The notes under the pieces were generated by a model. That model searched no databases. It saw only the letters and a program-made list of their open reading frames with translations, and was not told the DNA's origin. 53,329 nucleotides of DNA. It comes from Nitrososphaeraceae archaeon. Lineage in GTDB: Archaea > Thermoproteota > Nitrososphaeria > Nitrososphaerales > Nitrososphaeraceae. Where the stretch lies: positions 1-53,329 of the forward strand of contig JADDOW010000043.1 in NCBI GenBank assembly GCA_016782225.1, given 5' to 3'. Positions 27,423-39,538 of this stretch are shown here, piece after piece; the stretch's first letter is position 1; each line of letters begins with the position of its first letter. Position numbers and translations under genes: made by a program.

Positions 27423-27508
27423 GGAAAGTTCATTTTATCTCAAACTAAAATAAGACAAAAACAAGAGTCAAATCTATTGGGTATAACCATTGGTAATTAG
27501 ACCAAAAG

Positions 27509-28153
27509 TCAGTTTACCATATTGATTTCAATTGCTTTATTGTTTTCAATAATTGATCTAGCATTTTCAAAGGGCAAAATTGCAACATCATCTTTTTTAA
27601 ATGGTCCGTATTTGTTCATGTTGACACCCACAAATTGCTCCATAGAATCCAAAAACCTCAGAACAATAAAGTTTTGATTGATTGAAGATACTATTTTTTC
27701 TAATGTTTTAGGCTTCCCCTCAAACAATGTGTTTAAAACAAGATTTATTCTGTGCTCTCTTTCCCTATCACCATAAAAAACATATTTTTCCTCGTCAGTT
27801 AGATTTGAATAATCAAAAGTTTCATGGGTTTTATCAACACTAAATGTTTTCTTATACCTATATACAAACAACAATGTGACCGACCTGACCAATAAATCCA
27901 ATAGATTGTTTTTAATTTGATCAGATATCTTATTGTCCATTTTTTCTTTCTTCATAATTGAATCATTTGCTTCTTCGCGTTCTTTTTTGGCATAATTGTT
28001 ATCGTTCTTTAACTTTGAAATCATTTTAGCTATATTTTGATAAAAATCAGGCGGAAGAGATTGCGGGCCGCTGGTATTAAGTTGAATTTCTTTTTTTAAA
28101 GTATTAAAAACCTCTTCAATGTTTATAAAATTATTTTGGTTATCAGAACCCAA
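27509..28153 (-). CDS. Archaeal GINS subunit (Gins51/Gins15-like)
   Basis: 214 residues. The N-terminal helical domain ends in NNLLDLLVRSVTLLFVYRYKK and YSNLTDEEKYVFY; the C-terminal B domain reads FIVLRFLDSMEQFVGV, YGPFKKDDVAILPFENAR. This order of A then B domain is that of Gins51/Sld5-Psf1. GINS links MCM helicase and Cdc45/RecJ at the replication fork. TTG start at 28153. No primase or MCM gene is adjacent. Confidence 0.82.
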   Translation of the reverse strand: MGSDNQNNFINIEEVFNTLKKEIQLNTSGPQSLPPDFYQNIAKMISKLKNDNNYAKKEREEANDSIMKKEKMDNKISDQIKNNLLDLLVRSVTLLFVYRYKKTFSVDKTHETFDYSNLTDEEKYVFYGDREREHRINLVLNTLFEGKPKTLEKIVSSINQNFIVLRFLDSMEQFVGVNMNKYGPFKKDDVAILPFENARSIIENNKAIEINMVN

Positions 28154-28221
28154 TTTGACCTATAATTTTAACATGATAAGCTTAATTAGAAGTTTTTATT
28201 TTATTATATCGAACACTTCAA

Positions 28222-29688
28222 TTGCCTTATAAAGTTATAGATGGAAAGATTGAGTCTTTGAGTTTCACTGCAGAACAAGCGATGAAAAAACTAAAGGACG
28301 AAGAAATAAAGTTTTTAGATTTACAGTTTACAGGATTAACGGGTAGATTCCATCATACAACAATGGCGGCAAACATGTTTAACATAGAGGATTTTGAATA
28401 CGGACTACCCAAATTAGACGGCTCTTCAATAAGGGGATTCACCAAAATACACGAATCAGATCTTATTATAAGGCCTGACCCCTCAACCTATGCCATTATT
28501 CCATGGATACTAAAGGATAAGACAGCTCGGCTTATATGTGACATATTAGCTGGAGGGAAAACAAACCAACAGTACAAAAATGACCCAAGAGGCATAGCCA
28601 AAAGGGCACAAGAATATGTAAGACAACAGGGATATTACACATCTTACTGGGGTCCAGAGGTAGAATTTTTTGTTTTTGACAAGCTAGAGGTAAACACAAT
28701 GACCCCATACAGATCTCAAAGCTATAACATAACATCCAAAGAAGCACCATGGTCTACCGAGGGCGTGGGGTATGCATTAAGGCTAAAGGAAGGATACCTT
28801 CCCAGTGCACCAGGTGACACCCTGATGGAATATAGAAACGAATGTGTGGATGTGCTCAGTAATGATTTTGGTATAATTTGTGATGCGCATCATCATGAGG
28901 TTGCAACTGCAGGGCAATGTGAAATCGACATAAGATTTGACACTTTAGTAAATGCCGCAGACTCTGTCCAAAGTTACAAATACATTGTAAAAAACATTGC
29001 AAAAAAACACGGCATGATCGCAACGATGATGCCAAAACCCATAGCTCTAGACAATGGTTCTGGCATGCATGTTAATGTCAGTTTGTGGGATAAAGAAAAA
29101 AATCTATTTTTTGATGTCAATGATGACTATGCAGAAATGTCCCAGACAGCAAGATACTTTGCCGCGGGTATTCTGACCCATGCATCTGCCCTGGCAGCAA
29201 TAGTCGCGCCCACTACCAACTCTTACAGAAGATTAGTGCCAGGATATGAGGCACCTGTATATATTGCATGGAGCACAGGCAACAGGTCAGCAATCATCAG
29301 AAACGCGGCTCACTATAGAGGGGAAAGGTTTGCTCATATGAAAAGAATAGAGTTTAGAGCCCCAGATCCTTCATGTAATCCTTATTTAGCTTTTTCTGCA
29401 ATCATTTCTGCGGGATTAGACGGAATAAAGAAAAAGACATCAATTTCGGATCCAATAGACGAGGACATATTTAAAATGACTCCACAGCGTAGGATGGACC
29501 TTGGCATAAGGCAGTTACCTGCAACTCTCCGTGAGGCATATGAGGAGTTAAGTAATGACAGAGAATTCCTAAAGCCAATTTTTGATGATGATATTATTGA
29601 TTCAATAATCATACAAGAGGTAAAGGATCACGTAGATGTGACCATCAGACCCCATCCCCATGAATTTTCACTATATGCAGATGTTTAA
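28222..29688 (+). CDS. glnA: Glutamine synthetase, type I
   Basis: 488 residues, ATP-dependent ligation of ammonia to glutamate. Type I features: beta-grasp FLDLQFTGLTGRFHH, DGSSIRGF, the metal-binding WGPEVEFFVFD, NGSGMHVNVSLWD, and NRSAIIRNAAHYRGERF and RIEFRAPDPSCNPYLAFSA for ATP and glutamate. The loop that carries the adenylylated Tyr in enteric enzymes is not clearly conserved. TTG start at 28222, with a TATA-like TTTTATTATAT about 20-30 bases upstream. It consumes ammonia released by the urease encoded in the same window. Confidence 0.96.
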   Translation: MPYKVIDGKIESLSFTAEQAMKKLKDEEIKFLDLQFTGLTGRFHHTTMAANMFNIEDFEYGLPKLDGSSIRGFTKIHESDLIIRPDPSTYAIIPWILKDKTARLICDILAGGKTNQQYKNDPRGIAKRAQEYVRQQGYYTSYWGPEVEFFVFDKLEVNTMTPYRSQSYNITSKEAPWSTEGVGYALRLKEGYLPSAPGDTLMEYRNECVDVLSNDFGIICDAHHHEVATAGQCEIDIRFDTLVNAADSVQSYKYIVKNIAKKHGMIATMMPKPIALDNGSGMHVNVSLWDKEKNLFFDVNDDYAEMSQTARYFAAGILTHASALAAIVAPTTNSYRRLVPGYEAPVYIAWSTGNRSAIIRNAAHYRGERFAHMKRIEFRAPDPSCNPYLAFSAIISAGLDGIKKKTSISDPIDEDIFKMTPQRRMDLGIRQLPATLREAYEELSNDREFLKPIFDDDIIDSIIIQEVKDHVDVTIRPHPHEFSLYADV

Positions 29689-29839
29689 CCATATGATAAA
29701 GGTATCAGCATCAACCACCACCACCACCACCATCACATAATCATCATAAAGCAACGAATTAGTACCGAAAAGCCCTCATTTTCCAAGATCAAAACAAACG
29801 TTTAATAACATTAGATCATTACAATTTAAAATATTTTTT

Positions 29840-29914
29840 GGAGGGGTTGTCTAGACTGGTTAGGATACCTGCCTTACACGCAGGTGGTCATGGGTTCAAA
29901 TCCCATTCCCTCCA
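29840..29914 (+). tRNA. tRNA-Val (UAC)
   Basis: 75 bases. Acceptor GGAGGGG pairs with TCCCTCC, anticodon arm CCTGC-CTTACAC-GCAGG, T-arm ATGGG/CCCAT around TTCAAAT, discriminator A. No intron, no encoded CCA. Its 3' end is the left attachment site of the integrative element. Confidence 0.96.
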
Positions 29915-29915
29915 C
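29894..29915 (+). other. Left att core (in tRNA-Val 3' end)
   Basis: T-loop, T-stem, acceptor and discriminator of tRNA-Val, running into one flanking C. Identical over 22 bases to 38477-38498. Integration here leaves the tRNA whole. Confidence 0.82.
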
Positions 29916-29918
29916 TCC

Positions 29919-29933
29919 ATTCACGGGTTTATA
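29919..29933 (+). repeat. Left inverted arm of the element
   Basis: ATTCACGGGTTTATA, four bases inside the left core. Its exact reverse complement is at 38451-38465, 11 bases inside the right core. Likely an integrase arm-binding site or the inner end of the mobile unit. Confidence 0.65.
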
Positions 29934-29977
29934 CAGAATGCTTTTATCTTAAAAAAACAAGAACTTTAATATAATAA

Positions 29978-31511
29978 ACCTATGATAGAGGAAAGGGAGA
30001 TACAGTTAATGAAGTTCTGAACGATAATAATAATTCGGTCAAAATAAAAGATTCCAATGAAAATTACGATATTCCCATTATAACAACTGAAAAATCCTTA
30101 TCCTATAATTTAGAAGATACTGCAAATTTAAAAAGAAAAATTGAACATATTACACAGTATCTTAAACCATATATTTCAAAAATATTATACGAAGTCTTAC
30201 AAATCAATTCCAACAATCTAAAAACAATATGTGATTATATTGTTGCAGAGCAAAATGAAATAAATATAAAGGAATCTACTAAGGAAACAAAGATAAAGAA
30301 ATTTGTTCATTTATCCAGACATTTTCTTCATAAAAAAACATTCTACGAAATGACAAAGGAGGACATACTAGACTATCTTAATAGTCTCAGGAAATCCTCT
30401 ACAGTAGATCCAACTCACAGGAGCATAGGAACATGGAATGCACGACAAATGTTATTTTTAAAATTCTTTAGATGGCTATACAATCGTAATGAGCCAGACA
30501 TTAGAAAAATAGAAACTCCGGATTGTATGAAAGGCATAAGACAACTCCCAAGAAAGGAAAAATCTCCATATAAACCAGATTATATGTGGACCGGGGAGGA
30601 ACATGCCATATTCTTGAAGTATTGTCCTTATTCACGCGATAGATGCTATCACGCTATGGCTTTTGATACATCTGCTAGACCACATGAACTTTTAAACCTA
30701 AAGATCAAGGATATAAAATTCAAGATATCAACTGATAACATACAATATGCAGAAGTTACAGTAGATGGAAAAACTGGTCCTAGAACTCTTCCTCTTATAG
30801 ATTGCATCCCATACCTTAAAGAATGGATTTTGAATCATCCAATGGAAATAATCGCGATGAATGGCTTTTTGTTTCATTGAGCGACAAAACTACGGTAGTA
30901 ACAATAGTAATGTAACGACATCAAATCAACTATCAGTTAACGGATTATTAAAAAGATATAAGAATCAATATTGTAATCTTTTTCATAAACTTCTTGAAGA
31001 TAAAAAAGTTCCAGAAGTTGAAAAATCCTACATAAGGAATATGTTGACCAAACCTTGGAACTTGTATATTTTTCGCCATTCCGCATTAACTGAAAAATCA
31101 AAAATGGTCAAAGAGCACATTCTGAGAAATCATGCAGGATGGTCCATAACCAGTAAGATGCCACAAAGATATATTCACTATTTTGGAAGTGAATCATCGA
31201 AATCCATACTCAAGGTAAAAGGAATTATCAAAGAAAACGAATCAGATACACAAGATACTCTCAAAATCAATACAGTGTCCTAATTGTAGTGAATCCAATA
31301 AGCAGGAATCGCCATTTTGTGAAAATGCAAAATGGTATTATCTTATGATTCGTATAATGAGGCAAGAAATAAAGATAAGCAAAAAATGGACAGATTGGAA
31401 AGCGATGTAGAGTCATTAAAAAACGGCATGACTAAAATATTCTTACTTATCCAGCAAAATCCTGCTTTGATCAATGTGAAACCAGAGGTATTAGAAAAAA
31501 AAGTAAAATAA
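29978..31511 (+). pseudogene. Tyrosine recombinase/integrase, multiply frameshifted
   Basis: A reconstructed protein of about 500 residues. N-terminal SAM-like core-binding domain (TYDRGKG... to FLHKKTFYEM), then the catalytic domain with Arg in TSARPHELLNLK, RHSAL, HAGW, and the nucleophile in YIHYFG, and finally a C-terminal zinc ribbon (CPNC...CEKC when frames are joined) with a coiled coil ending VLEKKVK. Frame changes are needed near 30840, 30888, 31270 and 31325, and the first frame has no ATG until 30350. All landmarks survive in order, so decay is recent. It lies directly downstream of its target tRNA. Confidence 0.85.
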
Positions 31512-31524
31512 ATAAAATTAAATC

Positions 31525-32711
31525 CTATCCACCATATCTTATAAATTCATCATAGTGTTCTCTGAAGTCATTATTTATTTCATTTATTAGTTGTCTGATC
31601 CCTTTATCCTTTGCTAATTCTTTTAATATAGAATCATATTGTCTTGTAGATTCATCTTTTAAAAGGTAGTAAAGGTAAAGCTCACTGGGTTTATTGAATA
31701 ATTGTAAAATAGAGAATCCAAATTGAAGTTTTAAACGTTCAACAACAGAGACACAAAACCGAGGTAACCTCGATAATAAATAATCACGTTTATCCCGGTA
31801 TTCTGTTCTATATAAGATAAAGCAATTGGGTGTCTTTTTAATAGAGATGTTCTCATATTCTCTGTCATTCCTTAATAATTTAGCTTTGCTATTCTTTTCG
31901 TCTATTTCTATTGAGTATACGGTGATATCACATTCAAAAGAAAGGCGATTAGAAGAGACATAAGTATTGACAATCGAATCACTTGAGTTAATTCCAGGAT
32001 AAAAAGGCACAAGGATAACACTACCTGCTAAACCATGACAAAACTCATTCCATTTTGCCCTATCGTTTTTTAAACTATAATTCCATTTTATGCCATGCTC
32101 CTCAATCTTTCCGTTTTTATAAAATTCCCTGAAAAGTTTTAATTCTTTATCAATCACTTGGCATACTTGTCTTATATAATTGACAATTTCCCACAAGATC
32201 ACATCATCGGTAATACGGTAAAGTAAGTCCTTGTCTATTAGGTTATAGATAAAAATTTGAAACAGAGGATCATTTCCATAAGTATTAAATATTTTAACCC
32301 TACAATCATTAATCGGGCTTTCTCTTACGTCATTTATCTTGATTTCTTTTAGTACATAAAACAAACCAATACTTGTCAGTTTATAGTATCTGCTTGTTCT
32401 GTATTATGACTGATTTTGGAAGGGAGGTGGAAGGATTGGTCTTTTTTATTAAACCCAGTTTAAAAAATTTATCTAATCTTTTCTTTTACATGATTAGGAG
32501 CTGCTTTAAATTCCGTTTTTTGCAGAATATGGGCTATTTGACTTACAGACAAGTAATCCTCATAAAGGAATTGCTTTAGTGTATAAAATGCCTCATTAGT
32601 CAGCCCATTTATTTCATCAACATTTACGTCTAGAAAACTTGTAAAATATAGCTCCAAATCCTTGTTATTTTCTAGCCAAGTGTTTTCTTCCTGTTCAATT
32701 TCCTTCAGTGT
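31525..32711 (-). pseudogene. Winged-helix protein gene, broken
   Basis: Two open frames belong to one gene. The upstream part (from 32711) encodes a helix-turn-helix, LYEDYLSVSQIAHILQKTEF and HVKEKIR, then meets two TAA codons; the same frame goes on as KKDQSFHLPSKISHN. After a frameshift near 32385 it continues as RYYKLTSIGLFYVLKE into a 279-residue open part (start TTG 32364). Together it would be ~395 residues with a winged-helix N-terminus, ending in a long mixed domain of no recognised family. Perhaps an element-borne transcription regulator. Confidence 0.6.
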
Positions 32712-32773
32712 TTAAGAAAAGTTCAAAGATATATTGATGATACGCTTTTCCTTAAAAAGGGTATATAACAAAA

Positions 32774-32929
32774 ATGCATATTTTATTAACTCTGCAACAT
32801 TATAGTAATGGTGGTTTATCTCCAGACCGTAAAAGTTATGTCCGAAAACGTGATCCCTTTGTTGCCAGATATAATACGAATAATGAATATAATAAAGATA
32901 TAGTTGATATCAAGTCGGCGCCGCTTTAG
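32774..32929 (+). CDS. Possible 51-aa peptide or gene fragment
   Basis: ATG to TAG, MHILLTLQHYSNGG then LSPDRKSYVRKRDPFVARY and an Asn-rich end. The composition looks coding, and a TATA-like TATATAAC lies just before. The last codons and the stop lie inside the GC-rich hairpin of the 49-bp repeat, so the frame may have been cut by it. No family recognised. Confidence 0.35.
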   Translation: MHILLTLQHYSNGGLSPDRKSYVRKRDPFVARYNTNNEYNKDIVDIKSAPL

Positions 32930-32964
32930 GCGGCGCCAATACCCATAACCAAATAATAGGTCAG
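32916..32964 (+). repeat. 49-bp repeat with GC-rich hairpin, copy 1
   Basis: Begins with a perfect hairpin, GGCGCCGC-TTTAG-GCGGCGCC, then an AT-rich tail ending ATAGGTCAG. 44 of 49 bases match the copy at 35473-35521 in the same orientation. The tail runs into a second small palindrome, AGGTCAGACCT. Striking in surrounding DNA that is very AT-rich. Confidence 0.8.
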
Positions 32965-33341
32965 ACCTAATGGCCCTCTTGCAATGCTTTTATACTATGT
33001 TTCAGGTATTTGAACAGTCTAAATGTACGATATTCTTTTTTTCTCATATGTGCAATAGAATGACGATCTTGGGTTATCAGATTTTTCAACATTACTAATT
33101 TTAACACGATATTTAACAAAGGATTTTTTTGAATTTTATATATTGCTAATTAGGCAATAGATTTACTAGGTTTGATCATATGTTATAATTATGTTAAAGA
33201 AGCATTTATCTATTATATTGATTATGGGCATCGATTAACATTGCATTGTTGTGCAAGACCTGGATTTCACAATGGTATTTTTATAGAAAGTATTATGTTA
33301 AAAAAAAGAATATTGTGATTCTTATTCGACGTTAGATGTGT
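32965..33341. other. Intergenic within the element
   Basis: AT-rich, no credible gene on either strand. Confidence 0.4.
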
Positions 33342-33807
33342 TTACTTTTTCAGACGTACTTCTTCTGAAACTTGTTTTGTTTCCCTGACAGGTTTCTTTT
33401 TTACAACGACTTCTTTCTTGACACAAGGTATCTTTGTTACGTCAACTTCCTCTTTTTTTACAGGTATTGTTACATTCTCTGTGGATGAAACAGGTGTTCG
33501 TGCTTCTGTTTGTCCACTTGGAGGCATTCTTTCAATGGTTATCTCCTCTTGTGTTACGGGAACCTCAGCTGTTTTAGTTTCGGTTGTTGGCTCTTTTGTA
33601 ATTGTGGCCTGGCTTTCTGAAGTTCTTTTTGTTACGTCTAATTTCTCTTCTGTCAATTGTATTGTTGATTCTTCCTCAGTTCCTTCCTTCTTCTGGTGTT
33701 TGGTCAGTTTCCATATCGGTAGAAGAATAAGAAGATGGAAATGAATCCCCTGTGTATTTGTTTATTATCCCATCCTCGGAGTCTAAATCTAAGAACATCG
33801 CCAACAT
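33342..33807 (-). pseudogene. DUF2382 (YsnF/AvaK-type) protein, frameshifted
   Basis: From an ATG at 33807 the frame reads MLAMFLDLDSEDGIINKYTG then a Ser/Thr linker to a TGA. One shift within the GAAGGAAGG region (33680-33692) restores TEEESTIQLTEEKLDVTKR and a complete DUF2382 domain: VPVTQEEITIERMPPSG, VTIPVKKEEVDVTK, VKKEVVVKKKPVRETKQVSE. DUF2382 proteins are stress-linked and often carry a PRC-barrel; the short N-terminus may be what remains of one. Confidence 0.75.
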
Positions 33808-33973
33808 AACTCTCGGATTGATCTAGAGGAGTTGAGATTACTTATAAATTATATCCGAAATAAATTGATCTGGAATTGGTGTATAGACAGTTCGGAAAGA
33901 ATTTGAAAATTTAATCCGTGCGTCCATGGCTTAAAATCAGTTACAGCTCCTAAAGCAGGAGCAATTTTAGGAT

Positions 33974-34339
33974 CTACTTTTTAACAGTTAATATAGCATC
34001 GCCACTTTGTGTTGTTCCTATTTCATGAGCATTTACAGCTTCTTTAACAAAGATCATCCCATGTGCCTCAGATCCCGAATGTATCTTTACGAGATCGTCA
34101 ATGATTTGATTTGCAGATGAATCAGGTACAATCGTTTCAACCTTAGTTCTCTTTTCATGTTCTGGAGTAGTTTTCCTCCCCGTCATATAGGCACTTACCA
34201 TCTCATGTACTTCTTTGATTTTTGTCCGACCTCTAGCGTTTACCTCATAAAAAGCAAAACCACCGACATTGTGCTTATTTAGAATTTCAGTTACTTTAGG
34301 GAGATTCTCAGCACGAATAAAAATACTTAATTCCTTCAT
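33974..34339 (-). CDS. PII-like nitrogen regulatory protein (GlnB/GlnK family)
   Basis: 121 residues, intact. Core strands and helices match PII: MKELSIFIRAENLPKVTEIL, GGFAFYEVNARGR, TKVETIVPDSSANQIIDDLV, HGMIFVKEAVNAHEIGT. PII trimers sense ATP/ADP and 2-oxoglutarate and control nitrogen transport and assimilation. The T-loop (residues ~37-60) lacks the RGxEYxV motif and its Tyr, so uridylylation is unlikely and partners may differ. It is one of the few whole genes in the element. The transposase remnant ends 17 bases upstream of its ATG, so its promoter may come from that remnant. Confidence 0.88.
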   Translation of the reverse strand: MKELSIFIRAENLPKVTEILNKHNVGGFAFYEVNARGRTKIKEVHEMVSAYMTGRKTTPEHEKRTKVETIVPDSSANQIIDDLVKIHSGSEAHGMIFVKEAVNAHEIGTTQSGDAILTVKK

Positions 34340-34355
34340 ATCGCCAATTACTAAA

Positions 34356-34952
34356 TCAAATAGATAAAGTTTTCCTTTGGCATACAGGTGCTGTTAAGTT
34401 AAGGCTTGTCAGCTCACAATCTAATTTCTTCCTATAGTCTAATAATAATCAAAACCTTCATTTCTATCCTTAATATACTTAGAGCTCTTTCAATGATGCT
34501 TTTTTCAAACGTTGAATGTAGTCTATGTTTAAGACCCAAAGTAGTCCATGCTTCAGGATACAAAGCACACCATCATTTTAATATATTATGTGTTTACCAT
34601 ATAATTGAACTAGTGATCTGAGAAATGGTTCTACCACAAGCATATTCCTATGTCTTGAAAGATTGACACCTAAAACCATTCTATGAATTGGTTCTATTGC
34701 TATCCGTGACCAGGCCTCAGCATTGCCATTTTGTATTTGTGCTTCATCTATTATAAAAACAGGTATTCTTATCTTCTTTTTATTTTGGTAACCCTCTCTT
34801 GGATCGAATTTCTGTATCCAATATCATACTGCAATACAACCTCTCTCTACACGTGACTCTAATGCCTTTGAAGTATTTCTAAGGCTTAATCCAAGGAAGT
34901 ACAAATACAAAGCATATTTAATAAGGTTTCTTGTCCTATTACATTCAAACAT
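34356..34952 (-). pseudogene. IS6/IS240-like DDE transposase remnant
   Basis: Starts MFECNRTRNLIKYALYLYF, LGLSLRNTSKALE. An in-frame TGA interrupts AV*YWIQKFDP. The catalytic core follows: first Asp in VFIIDEAQIQ, AWSRIAIEPIH, LSRHRNMLVVE, LYGKHIIY, then a frameshift to LYPEAWTTLGLKHRLHS and the Glu in KSIIERALS, and another shift to the C-terminus. At least three lesions. No terminal inverted repeats could be recognised. It is about 200 codons, normal for this family. Confidence 0.78.
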
Positions 34953-34966
34953 TTCTGAATTAATAT

Positions 34967-35230
34967 TTGAACAGACTAGCTTTAGAGTTTACAACTGCTT
35001 TACGGAATTCATCATTATATAGAAAAGAATTTAATTCGTTACCTAATGAAGAAAAACCAAATTGGTATGTTATTAACCAATCACCGGCTGAAAGAGCCAA
35101 TCTTAGGATCCCCGAGTTATCTCCAGAAGAATCTAACAAAGCGTTAAGTGGCTTTCTTGGAACATACGGGAAACTAATACTAACGAGGAATCCACAAAAC
35201 CCATGCCTTCAACTTTACCACATCTTATAG
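34967..35230 (+). CDS. Hypothetical protein fragment
   Basis: 87 codons from a TTG, RLALEFTTALRNSSLYRKEF, LPNEEKPNWYVINQSP, PEESNKALSGFLGTYGK. It looks coding (balanced hydrophobic and charged residues) but has no ATG and begins 15 bases from the transposase remnant, so the 5' end may be lost. The last 15 residues deteriorate, and other frames stay open a little further, hinting at a frameshift near 35200. Family unknown. Confidence 0.4.
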   Translation: MNRLALEFTTALRNSSLYRKEFNSLPNEEKPNWYVINQSPAERANLRIPELSPEESNKALSGFLGTYGKLILTRNPQNPCLQLYHIL

Positions 35231-35350
35231 TCTTGCACAACAGGGAACTAGTAAATCCATCATCACCAAATAATACCGAGATTCTAACACCTTCGCGTTG
35301 AGAAATACATAGAATAATATGTCCATTACCAATAGTGACGATGAATTAGT

Positions 35351-35368
35351 GGCGGCCTTATGGCCGCC
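35351..35368 (+). repeat. GC-rich hairpin, type 2 copy 1
   Basis: GGCGGCC-TTAT-GGCCGCC, a perfect 7-bp stem with a 4-base loop. The same stem with loop ATAA (the reverse complement) is at 37277-37294. Confidence 0.75.
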
Positions 35369-35472
35369 GTAACAATGCATTTCTATTAATAAAAAATAAG
35401 AGCATCTATTATACACAATGAGATATCTGTAGCCAAATCAGGTCTTGATTAGTATTATAATGATATATTAAC

Positions 35473-35521
35473 CGGCGCTGCTTTAGGCGGCGCCAAAACC
35501 TATAATCAAAGAATAGGTCAG
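35473..35521 (+). repeat. 49-bp repeat with GC-rich hairpin, copy 2
   Basis: GGCGCTGC-TTTAG-GCGGCGCC, as copy 1 but with one G-T pair in the stem, followed by the same tail to ATAGGTCAG. The truncated gene at 35517 begins right at its end. Confidence 0.8.
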
Positions 35522-35960
35522 CCTTCAGTGTCCTCTGAATGTGAAATACATCTTCTTCCACAATGGCACTGTGATGATATACCTAGAGTGCAGCGAGAAT
35601 CCGTTTCGTATCCATGAGGAAGAGGATATCTCCATTATTATAGCCTTCCTTGGCAGGGTAGAACAGAGCCAGCATGATCTCCTCTCCGACACAAGGGGAA
35701 TCATTGTTCCTCCTGTCAGCAAATGGATCCTAACGCGCTGTGACGTTAACAAGGACATTGAGATTGATGGCATAACCCAACTGGCATTGCCTGCCATGCA
35801 AATGCCACTGGTGGAAAAAGCCCTTAGAGCATATGTCAAAGTGATTGGGGATAAAGCGTATTTGAGAACTGAAAAATTCCTCACACCAAATCAGCCCATT
35901 GGAGAAGCTTTGGAGAACATAAGGACCAGTGTGGATTTAGAAAGATTTCTTATTGTTTGA
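35517..35960 (+). pseudogene. N-terminally truncated protein of unknown family
   Basis: The open frame starts right after a stop codon inside the 49-bp repeat and has no ATG until VMIYLECSENPFRIHEEED (Met in VMIY near 35571); a GTG at 35541 is the first usable start. The sequence is compact and well formed (IIIAFLGRVEQSQHDLLSD, GIIVPPVSKWILTRCDVNKD, and LTPNQPIGEALENIR at the end). The C-terminus seems whole. I think the repeat or the event that brought it removed the first part. Function unknown. Confidence 0.5.
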
Positions 35961-36169
35961 TGGTGATGCTGATGGTTGCGATAGTGAAAAAGAAGAGAAT
36001 AATGTTATCTAACCTCATTTGTTTTTAACCTTCAAAGAGAGGTTGTTTGCTGACTTGTGGTTATATCATCAGTGGATGTAAGTTATGGTTTGATTATTGT
36101 GATTCTAATGTCTTATGTAGTGGCGATGGCCAAGTTTATGCATCCTCTATTCCTTTATAGCCCAAGTGA

Positions 36170-36427
36170 TTTGACACCTGGCTGCATGGGATTCTTTCGT
36201 TTTTCAGTTATCTACAAGCCAAGTATCCTGAAGTTCTTTTACATCAAAAATGTTCCTCCACTCATATCATACTTGATTCATTAGACTTTTTATGCAAAAT
36301 TCTTGGAGCAGATAGTTCAATTTCAAATGCCAGTATAGATTTATCTCACCATCAGATAATTTTTATATTGTTTTTAGCATATCCAAAACACATTGGTTAT
36401 GCCAGGAGAATCCAGAGACAGGGTTAA
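36170..36427 (+). pseudogene. Possible decayed coding remnant
   Basis: A stop-free stretch without start codon, LSFFSYLQAKYPEVLLHQKC and IILDSLDFLCKILGADSS, preceded in the same frame, after two stops, by FDYCDSNVLCSGDGQVYASS. Composition is protein-like. It overlaps the start of the MEDS gene. No family recognised; low confidence. Confidence 0.25.
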
Positions 36428-37043
36428 TGCGTCTCCGGAAGAGTTTTTACATGACTTAAGGCCTGGAGAGCATGGATGTGTTTTTTTCTTCACCAAGGAG
36501 GAAATGCAGCGGATTCACTTTGCTTTTGTTAAATCTGGCCTTGATAATAACTGGGGGGTTGTGTACCTTACTGCAACAGAGTCTGCAGAAGAAGTAAGAA
36601 AATCAATGCAAAAACATGGAATTAACACTTGTCAACATGAAGGAGAATCTGGTGATGGCAGCCTCATTATATTGAGGGGGGAGGAAATATACAAGAATCC
36701 AAACAATCCAGACATTGACAATTGGATTAATGCTACAAAATCCATCTCAGATATGTTTACTTCCAAAGGCAAAAAAGGTGTTAGAGTTGCAGCGGATCTG
36801 TCCGCCTATTTCATTTCACATGGCCTTGTGGAGCAATGGCACAAACTTGAGTATGTGCTTGGCAAAAAACTCACGTTGCCCATGTCCATTCTCTGTGCGT
36901 ATGATTCAGGTTCTTCAAAGACATGGGACACAGATTTGCTCAAATTCTATGATAGACTTAATTCCGAAACAAAAGGATTCGTTGATGCCCATAGCTTTGT
37001 AATATATACTCTAAAACAAAAAAGTGTAATTTTTACAATTTAA
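36399..37043 (+). CDS. MEDS (DcmR-like sensory) domain protein
   Basis: About 214 residues from the ATG at 36399; a TTG two codons earlier is possible. A single domain with RPGEHGCVFFFTKEEMQRIH, WGVVYLTATESAEEVRKSM, an EEIYKNP motif, KGVRVAADLSAYFI and ILCAYDSG matches the MEDS domain found in DcmR-like sensors and in archaeal regulators, a RecA/KaiC-like fold without the usual Walker A. No DNA-binding domain is present. Intact despite decay around it, so perhaps still useful or recently acquired. Confidence 0.75.
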   Translation: MPGESRDRVNASPEEFLHDLRPGEHGCVFFFTKEEMQRIHFAFVKSGLDNNWGVVYLTATESAEEVRKSMQKHGINTCQHEGESGDGSLIILRGEEIYKNPNNPDIDNWINATKSISDMFTSKGKKGVRVAADLSAYFISHGLVEQWHKLEYVLGKKLTLPMSILCAYDSGSSKTWDTDLLKFYDRLNSETKGFVDAHSFVIYTLKQKSVIFTI

Positions 37044-37428
37044 AAGAGGTTATTGTTAGGCAACAAGAACAGGTTTGCGATAAATACCACCTAGTACTAT
37101 GATAAAAAAACCGATTATAGGTTATGCCAGAATATAGCAATCCCTCTGCAATAGTGGATATTGTAGTCTACTGCAAAGTTAGTAATTTATTGCATTGCTT
37201 GATTAAAAGCTTGTTATCCCATAATGAAAGGATGCTTGAATGAGTGAAATTAGGATTATTGATTTTATGGGTTGGCGGCGGCCATAAGGCCGCCATAAGA
37301 TAACATTGTTTCTAGTCCCTTTTGAAATATTGAGGATTATGTTATGTTATAAGATTATTTTCAATAAATACAATCTTAAGGCATAATAACAAGTTCTAAT
37401 TAAAATCGATTAATTGAATAAATAATTA
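37044..37428. other. Intergenic within the element
   Basis: Holds a 39-codon ATG frame at about 37124 (MPEYSNPSAIVDIVVYCK) that may be a fragment, and the GC-rich hairpin at 37277-37294. No other gene seen. Confidence 0.4.
37277..37294 (-). repeat. GC-rich hairpin, type 2 copy 2
   Basis: GGCGGCC-ATAA-GGCCGCC, the reverse complement of the hairpin at 35351-35368. An additional GGC directly before it extends the GC-rich block. Confidence 0.75.
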
Positions 37429-37970
37429 ATGGTTTTTGTTATATCGGTATCAGTTGCATCACTATTCTCTAGTTCTTCTGTAGTATCCACTGTATTCGCA
37501 GCATCAAAGGACCATCGTTGGGAGAATGGGGGATGTACACTCAAAGACTATGAGCCTGGGTCTGCAATAAGCACGTGTTGTTGGAGAGAAATGGTTCCTG
37601 GTCAGATATTAGGGCAAGAATACTGTTAGACATGTGACTCATCTACAGGAAAATGTGGAGATAAGGAACTTCAAATGGACTACAGTAGATACCTGATTCT
37701 GTCAGACCTCCAAGTAATGGTGGCGGTGTTTTAGAACAACCACCAACAGGTGAAGTAACACAGCCTCCAACAACAGGCGAGTCGGTGTTTCCAGGAGAAG
37801 GCGGGGTTTTAGAACAACCACCAACATCAACTAATGACAACAATGAAAATACCCCTTCAATGGATGGAATCACAGAAGATGTACAAACATCAAATGATGG
37901 CCAAATACCTACTCTAAACAGTAATGAAAACATTCCATCCGATGAAGGTGGAGTAGCAGAAGAACACTAA
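37429..37970 (+). pseudogene. Secreted Cys-containing protein, nonsense and frameshift
   Basis: A signal peptide (MVFVISVSVASLFSSSSVV, cleavage after VFAAS) is followed by a domain with paired Cys (GGCTLKD, STCCW, GQEYC). A TAG then interrupts, and the frame continues TCDSSTGKCGDKELQ, so the Cys-rich part extended further (TAG is one change from CAG). Later a shift joins PDSVRPPSNGGGVLEQPP, a Pro-rich tail holding GGVLEQPPT twice and an acidic C-terminus ending VAEEH. About 180 residues when repaired. Function unknown; probably cell-surface. Confidence 0.6.
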
Positions 37971-38324
37971 CATCTTTTACTAAAGGAAATGACGCAAAAT
38001 GTTTCATATGATGATGAGGGTATTGAATGATAAACCTACATATTATAATGAAGATAGTGGCGTTATTCAACGTATTTAAAATAGAACCTTTAGTCTTTGT
38101 AGTTAGGTGATTTTAGATGCGGCAATAAAGCCCCAAATATATCTAAAATCAATAATGGGGACCTTCTTAGGCATTTGCAAGGCGACGGCCAAATGAGTTA
38201 AACGTTTAATACTTTTTGCCATCTACTTAAACATATGTCTCTTCTCTCCAAGTCAGAGATTCAATTTCTTCAAGGTCATAGGAAAGGTCATTCCTAAAAA
38301 CTTGTATTTTTTAAAAATATGTGT

Positions 38325-38392
38325 GCGAGTTGTTGGTCCAACATGGTTAAGAAGCAGGGAGAGATTGCAGGTTCAAATCCTGTTATTCTTAG
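38325..38392 (+). pseudogene. tRNA-like remnant
   Basis: A good T-arm (GCAGG-TTCAAAT-CCTGT, 38367-38383) and a D-arm-like TTGGTCCAACATGGTTAAGA are spaced as in a tRNA, but the anticodon arm does not pair and no matching 5' acceptor strand exists. It looks like a decayed tRNA. It lies about 85 bases inside the right att core. Confidence 0.45.
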
Positions 38393-38450
38393 ATAATTGC
38401 TTTATAGCTAAACTAATATAATATTTAAAATCAAAAAAATTGTATTTTCA

Positions 38451-38465
38451 TATAAACCCGTGAAT
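38451..38465 (-). repeat. Right inverted arm of the element
   Basis: TATAAACCCGTGAAT, exact reverse complement of 29919-29933. Confidence 0.65.
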
Positions 38466-38476
38466 ACAAGAAAGGT

Positions 38477-38498
38477 GTTCAAATCCCATTCCCTCCAC
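38477..38498 (+). other. Right att core (copy of tRNA-Val 3' end)
   Basis: 22 bases identical to 29894-29915. No tRNA body precedes it, so this is the duplicated target end left by integration. To its right the sequence changes to different decayed genes. Confidence 0.8.
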
Positions 38499-38710: not shown

Positions 38711-39538
38711 TTAATTATACATGATAACCAAAACTCTCCAAAACATAGAGACTGCAACTATAACCAACACGATTCCAATCATGAGTTTAAGATTAGAGTC
38801 ACTGAACTTGCTGGTGTATCTTGCACCTAAATATGCTCCAATCATTGCATTAGGACCCATCACCATTAAAATAAGGTAATCGGCATTATTGTTCAAAACA
38901 TGCCAATAAAACCTATTGTACCCATTACAGAAGCAGAGGCCAAGTTAGTTCCCACAGCAATTTTGGTTCTAATTTGAGGATGGATATCATTGCAGGCATC
39001 CTTATGCTTCCTAATACCAGACCTACAAGTCCCCCAAGAAAGCCAACTGTAAAGCCAATGGAAGACTCAATAAACATTGACTTACTTTTTAATCCTTTTT
39101 CAAGTCTGAAATTAAAATCAGTTTCCCCACCATAAGACTTTTTTTTGGATTGGATTTCTGTTTTGTTTGAGTTTTTAATAAGTGAAAATGCCTCATAGGA
39201 TACTATCACCCCTATATGGTGCCAAGCAATAATGCCATTGGAACAAACCTGGTTAAAAAGGAGCCAATAAACGCCCCGATTGCTCCAGTTATAGACATAG
39301 TAATAAAAACTTGAAAATCCACATTATTTTGCCTATAATGACTGATTGCGGCAGCTATGGAGCCAAGTGTGCTTATACCCAAATTGGTTCCTGCGGCAAT
39401 GCTTGCAGTAGTTTATGCACCTAAAACCAGTGGAAACCTAACCACCCCTAATACCAGTCCAACCATGCCACCCACAAATCCAATCAGTAAACCAGCTATT
39501 GCAAACGCAAAAAGATAGGCTATCTCATTAAACAGCAT
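38711..39538 (-). pseudogene. TauE/SafE-family membrane protein, frameshifted
   Basis: From the ATG at 39538: MLFNEIAYLFAFAIAGLLIG, GGMVGLVLGVVRFPLVLGA, a stop in place of one residue, then AGTNLGISTLGSIAAAISHY, TGAIGAFIGSFLTR, a break near 39215, the central part with FIESSIGFTVGFLGGLVGLV, a second break near 38920, and the C-terminus GPNAMIGAYLGARYTSKFSD. The two repeat halves, each with a GGxVGLVLG motif, identify the TauE/SafE (anion exporter) family. At least three lesions. It is outside the right att core. Confidence 0.78.

Follow-up and report, generated by a model that had tools for sequence, protein, structure and literature searches.

Evidence for a degraded cryptic integrated element at tRNA-Val(TAC) in Candidatus Nitrosocosmicus

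Between positions 29840 and 38498 of the window, as we call the whole 53,329 nucleotide stretch analysed (bases 1-53329 of the 100 kb contig C91), lies what is almost certainly a degraded cryptic integrated element of Candidatus Nitrosocosmicus, inserted at tRNA-Val(TAC) by a pNOB8-type integrase. The source genome, here G000, is 2.62 Mb in 118 contigs, with 3.15% contamination. As relatives of the integrase family were found mainly in Candidatus Nitrosocosmicus or Nitrososphaerales, the host appears to belong to Candidatus Nitrosocosmicus. The features recognised, by position and strand, are:

29840-29915, +: tRNA-Val(TAC), the integration target (ARAGORN; Rfam, 61 bits)
29894-29915, +: attL core, 22 bp, an exact repeat of the tRNA 3′ end
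29920-29933, +: left arm, TTCACGGGTTTATA, in a left end conserved in congeners
29978-31511, +: pseudogene of a pNOB8-type tyrosine integrase with a C-terminal zinc ribbon, containing several frame-disrupting indels
31525-32708, -: broken remnant of a gene for a ~500 aa protein of unknown family (relative, a 502 aa protein)
33299-33830, -: truncated, frameshifted copy of a DUF2382 (YsnF/AvaK) host gene, 81% identical to the full gene on G000:C26
33974-34339, -: intact P-II family gene, 121 aa (Pfam PF00543; PII matches in PDB)
34435-34988, -: remnant of an IS240-type (DDE_Tnp_IS240) transposase gene, a broken ORF
35465-36117, +: copy of a dispersed repeat family, with an ORF at 35541-35960 and a GC palindrome upstream of it at 35473-35494
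36184-37041, +: 0.86 kb segment with an intact MEDS gene (36393-37043, +), 90% identical in DNA to G010:C309
37211-37310, +: dispersed repeat B, with a GC palindrome
37429-37970, +: broken gene for a Cys-rich secreted protein, with a relative downstream of tRNA-Val in G007
38197-38289, +: dispersed repeat A, the 5′ end of an MSLLSKSEIQ-type gene
38358-38470, +: conserved right end with a tRNA T-arm-like stretch, recurring at G000:C19, G001:C95 and G010:C230
38451-38464, -: right arm, an inverse copy of the left arm
38477-38498, +: attR core, 22 bp, an exact repeat that forms the empty-site junction

The original prediction of an exact 22 base duplication of the tRNA 3′ end was confirmed. The two copies of the direct repeat are 8,583 bp apart, the chance expectation for an exact 22-mer match within the window is about 6e-9, and the two cores are the only full matches to the tRNA-Val 3′ end in the G000 genome. 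The tRNA gene is still complete despite the insertion. The prediction had also proposed looking for an empty tRNA-Val site in a relative, and the congener G001 has one: a single core (L033:9560-9581) with both flanks contiguous, making an exact empty site. The left flank (27500-29921), which includes glnA (28222-29688, upstream of tRNA-Val and named from its own sequence), is 97.3% identical to G001 over 2,425 columns, and the right flank (38477 onward) is 92.8% identical over 1,115 columns. Between G000 and G001, the dS of glnA is 0.066. Either the element entered after these two genomes split or it was precisely lost from G001; both are possible because G010 has the left end at tRNA-Val, on a contig that stops 533 bp after the tRNA. 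G010 may therefore carry the same insertion, in which case the G001 site could represent precise loss rather than the ancestral state.

Just inside both cores are 14 bp inverted arms that recur in other elements and are probably integrase-binding sites. The left end aligns with those of G003, G006, G010 and G014 and with internal left ends, belonging to later array members, in G005 and G007. At tRNA-Val, G003 and G005 have sequences that align with the right end, whose alignment with G000:C19, G001:C95 and G010:C230 spans about 130 bp, including the T-arm-like stretch. In all, left and/or right ends at tRNA-Val are common to G003, G005, G006, G007, G010 and G014. The T-arm-like stretch itself (38365-38394) lies about 90 bp inside the right end and is conserved between elements (L110, L111). 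A second tRNA was considered here, as Rfam returned 33.4 bits at 38272-38391, but ARAGORN found none there and the region overlaps repeat A; it was taken as a tRNA-like T-arm only.

The integrase homology extends over 30101-31508 in more than one frame, and the gene is broken. An intact copy is found at the same tRNA-Val in G014, on a contig (C103) that starts with the end of glnA and tRNA-Val; it shares about 76-80% amino acid identity with the window integrase, depending on the protein piece. Relative to this copy, the window gene is broken by four indels that disrupt the frame and by one in-frame stop, and the dN/dS is 0.14 at a dS of 1.36. This low ratio suggests that selection acted on the window integrase through most of its history, so that its inactivation would be recent. 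The G006 integrase at tRNA-Val is also broken, with lesions that differ from those in the window copy.

The N-terminal piece of the window integrase matched phrog_1, an integrase family (E 5.5e-19), and no solved structure matched the integrase profile at E 0.01. Five intact relatives share R225, K256, Y364xxR367, Y399 and a four-cysteine zinc ribbon, and the corresponding motif residues in the window read YIFRHS and YIHYF. The signature of pNOB8-type (class II) archaeal integrases is R...YxxR...Y (PMC8371274). This motif is shared by the window integrase, as is a gene that is not split by att: the att site is within the tRNA and the integrase gene starts after it. The window integrase differs in having an extra C-terminal zinc ribbon and tail, and the likeness rests on motif and gene layout. 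An SSV-type suicidal (split) integrase was rejected on the position of att in the tRNA and the motif, which is YxxR, not KxxR. Thus the integrase of the expected type that had been predicted beside the tRNA is indeed a tyrosine integrase adjoining tRNA-Val, though a broken one. Further integrases of the same family lie beside tRNA-Ser in G000, G003 and G005. The one in G000 (C76; L109:5573-6889), beside tRNA-Ser(GCT), is frameshifted.

Internally, the element is a mosaic of fragments in which two full ORFs are left, those of the PII-family and MEDS genes. The prediction that nearly all cargo is broken held for the ~500 aa protein, DUF2382, IS240 and Cys-rich ORFs, with the broken DUF2382 ORF placed at 33357-33829 and the IS240 one at 34483-34964, but decay extends beyond the element. 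A TauE/SafE-type permease gene to the right of attR (38711-39382), open in G001 (274 aa), contains a stop and frameshifts in the window, and because this gene outside attR is also broken, the decay is regional. The ~500 aa protein is intact in a G011 element, where its gene is also convergent to the integrase. Base composition was uninformative as a sign of foreign origin (GC content 34.4% in the element and 34.3% in the rest of the window).

The repeat family represented at 35465-36117 has expanded in G000 (C81, C16, C116, C109 and C76). Its ORF, of ~120-139 aa, has no Pfam match, and together with the adjacent palindrome may constitute a mobile unit. Fragments of the 5′ end of the MSLLSKSEIQ-type gene (38235-38287 in the window; L125, L131) are numerous, mostly truncated and located near repeat B. 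GC-rich perfect or near-perfect palindromes stand out in this AT-rich genome (35351-35368, 37277-37294, 32916-32937 and 35473-35494); they belong to dispersed repeats that occur on several contigs of G000 and in few genomes besides. One locus that is contiguous in G001 (L091, on G001:C40) is scattered over C80, C106, C109, C91 and C81 in G000, which suggests repeat-driven rearrangement or assembly breaks.

The two whole genes had been put forward as candidates for retained function. The product of 33974-34339 scored 43.5 bits against PF00543 (gathering cut-off 25), placing it in the P-II family, and its open frame, with no close intact relative, only suggests that function has been retained. 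The MEDS candidate fared better. Its product scored 61.7 bits against PF14417 (gathering cut-off 29.8), identifying a MEDS sensory domain, and because dN/dS against three homologues is 0.13-0.20, the gene is under purifying selection, which supports a retained function.

The MEDS gene was probably not part of the original cargo, because its segment sits elsewhere in G010. In G010:C309, it joins directly onto a block that in G000 ends at C81:3131, and no other close MEDS copy was found in the G000 genome. It is probably acquired host DNA that moved in from a chromosomal locus. It may also have been gained by exchange with another species, as it is 85% identical to its G001 homologue and thus more diverged than the flanking blocks, at about 94-95%. 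Under both readings MEDS is secondary cargo.

The resemblance of some interior genes to host DNA counts against our preferred account, as does the fact that no excised form was seen. We consider it somewhat probable that the outer ends derive from one old integration while most of the interior (PII, the DUF2382 copy, the repeat family and MEDS) arrived later, by transposition and recombination in a repeat-rich genome. The similarity of the DUF2382 copy to a host gene, the presence of the repeat family in many contigs, the location of the MEDS segment in G010, and the GC palindromes at 35351-35368 and 37277-37294 that bracket the repeat copy and MEDS all favour this. However, part of the interior is original, since the integrase and the convergent ~500 aa gene are arranged as in the G011 element. 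This account overlaps with our preferred one, integration followed by decay, more than it opposes it.

Comparison of the ends indicates that integration at the tRNA-Val next to glnA has happened repeatedly across the genus, making this site a hot spot. In G003, a 10.6 kb island lies between the same ends (L038:3800-14392). It encodes two class I methyltransferases, a low-molecular-weight phosphatase-family protein, a major-intrinsic-protein channel, a cation efflux protein and MEDS (Pfam), and no integrase was detectable in it. We read the methyltransferases as ArsM-like from their Cys-rich start, and the gene combination points to an arsenic-type island. In G005, beyond a set of complex I-like genes and about 10 kb from the tRNA, a right end abuts a new left end, and G007 has two right-end/left-end joints at tRNA-Val. 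These end-to-end junctions show that both genomes contain tandem arrays. Two G014 contigs carry the glnA end and tRNA-Val with differing downstream DNA, reflecting either strain variation or a mixed assembly. The relatives of the element that the original prediction suggested seeking are thus present at the same tRNA in congeners, and no complete intact copy was recovered; the G006, G010 and G014 contigs stop within or soon after the integrase. In the literature library searched for Nitrosocosmicus genomic islands, nothing was found on the tRNA-Val/glnA site.

These findings might be taken further. We think it rather unlikely that tRNA-Val(TAC)/glnA is a cassette-like landing site with common ends and arms, exchangeable cargo (arsenic-type, complex I-like, PII, MEDS) and tandem accretion, where a small family of pNOB8-type integrases mobilises the islands in trans, including those with no integrase of their own. 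It is unlikely that the window element is itself a non-autonomous island that has not moved by its own integrase of late, this integrase being a relic, and whose ends other members of the integrase family use in trans. The G003 island keeps both ends with no detectable integrase, there are several related integrases per genome, and the ends are better conserved than the interiors. Against this, the window integrase held a dN/dS of 0.14 until recently, and the closest family member elsewhere in G000, next to tRNA-Ser, is broken too. It is highly improbable that the frameshifts are sequencing errors and the interior a chimeric assembly: segments contiguous in G001 sit on five G000 contigs, and the assembly is fragmented (118 contigs) and 3.15% contaminated, but the neighbouring core genes (glnA, urease genes) are open, glnA aligns with G001 without a gap, and the element ends and core match independent genomes.

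The element is a degraded, newly found representative of the thaumarchaeal cryptic integrated elements, which range from 2.6 to 98 kb, with the majority under 20 kb, have att sites mostly under 26 bp and lack virus or conjugation signature genes (Krupovic et al. 2019, PMC6563490). It shares with them a tyrosine integrase, a tRNA 3′ end target, a short att, small size, and the occasional presence of transposons inside. Its integrase gene, though broken, is inside the element next to att, and the tRNA 3′-end att is verified by the empty site. It differs in being degraded, in the reuse of its site across the genus, and in having conserved ends that flank differing cargo, one such island having no detectable integrase. 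Arrays of integrated elements in tandem at a single archaeal site have been described (PMC6563490, PMC8371274); the G005 and G007 joints are alike, whereas the window holds a single element. Among the ORFs searched with Pfam, PHROGs and NCBIfam, none was a signature gene of a provirus, ICE or casposon, though decay could have removed such genes. A provirus was rejected, with no virion family match (Pfam, PHROGs), a test limited by decay, and a pattern scan of IMG/VR found no relative of the integrase. A defence island was rejected, with no PADLOC match.

In the preferred account, a circular element would have been joined to the 3′ end of tRNA-Val(TAC) beside glnA by a pNOB8-type tyrosine integrase, leaving the tRNA complete, as seen, with a 22 bp copy of its 3′ end marking the far side. 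The integrase would have stayed under selection until recently and then broken. Insertion sequences, repeat copies and host DNA, including MEDS, would have entered the interior, and the element is presumably no longer able to excise by itself. The same tRNA-Val site has been reused in the genus, sometimes as tandem arrays.

The empty site and the relatives at tRNA-Val support the view that this is the fossil of a mobile element in an ammonia oxidiser, a genuine fossil, though of an ordinary kind, at a frequently used integration site. The exact empty site shows how a mobile element entered one ammonia oxidiser and is now being lost from it. The conserved ends are a handle for finding more islands, including those without an integrase, and a hot spot beside glutamine synthetase could explain the gain of arsenic-type and other adaptive genes by soil Nitrosocosmicus.
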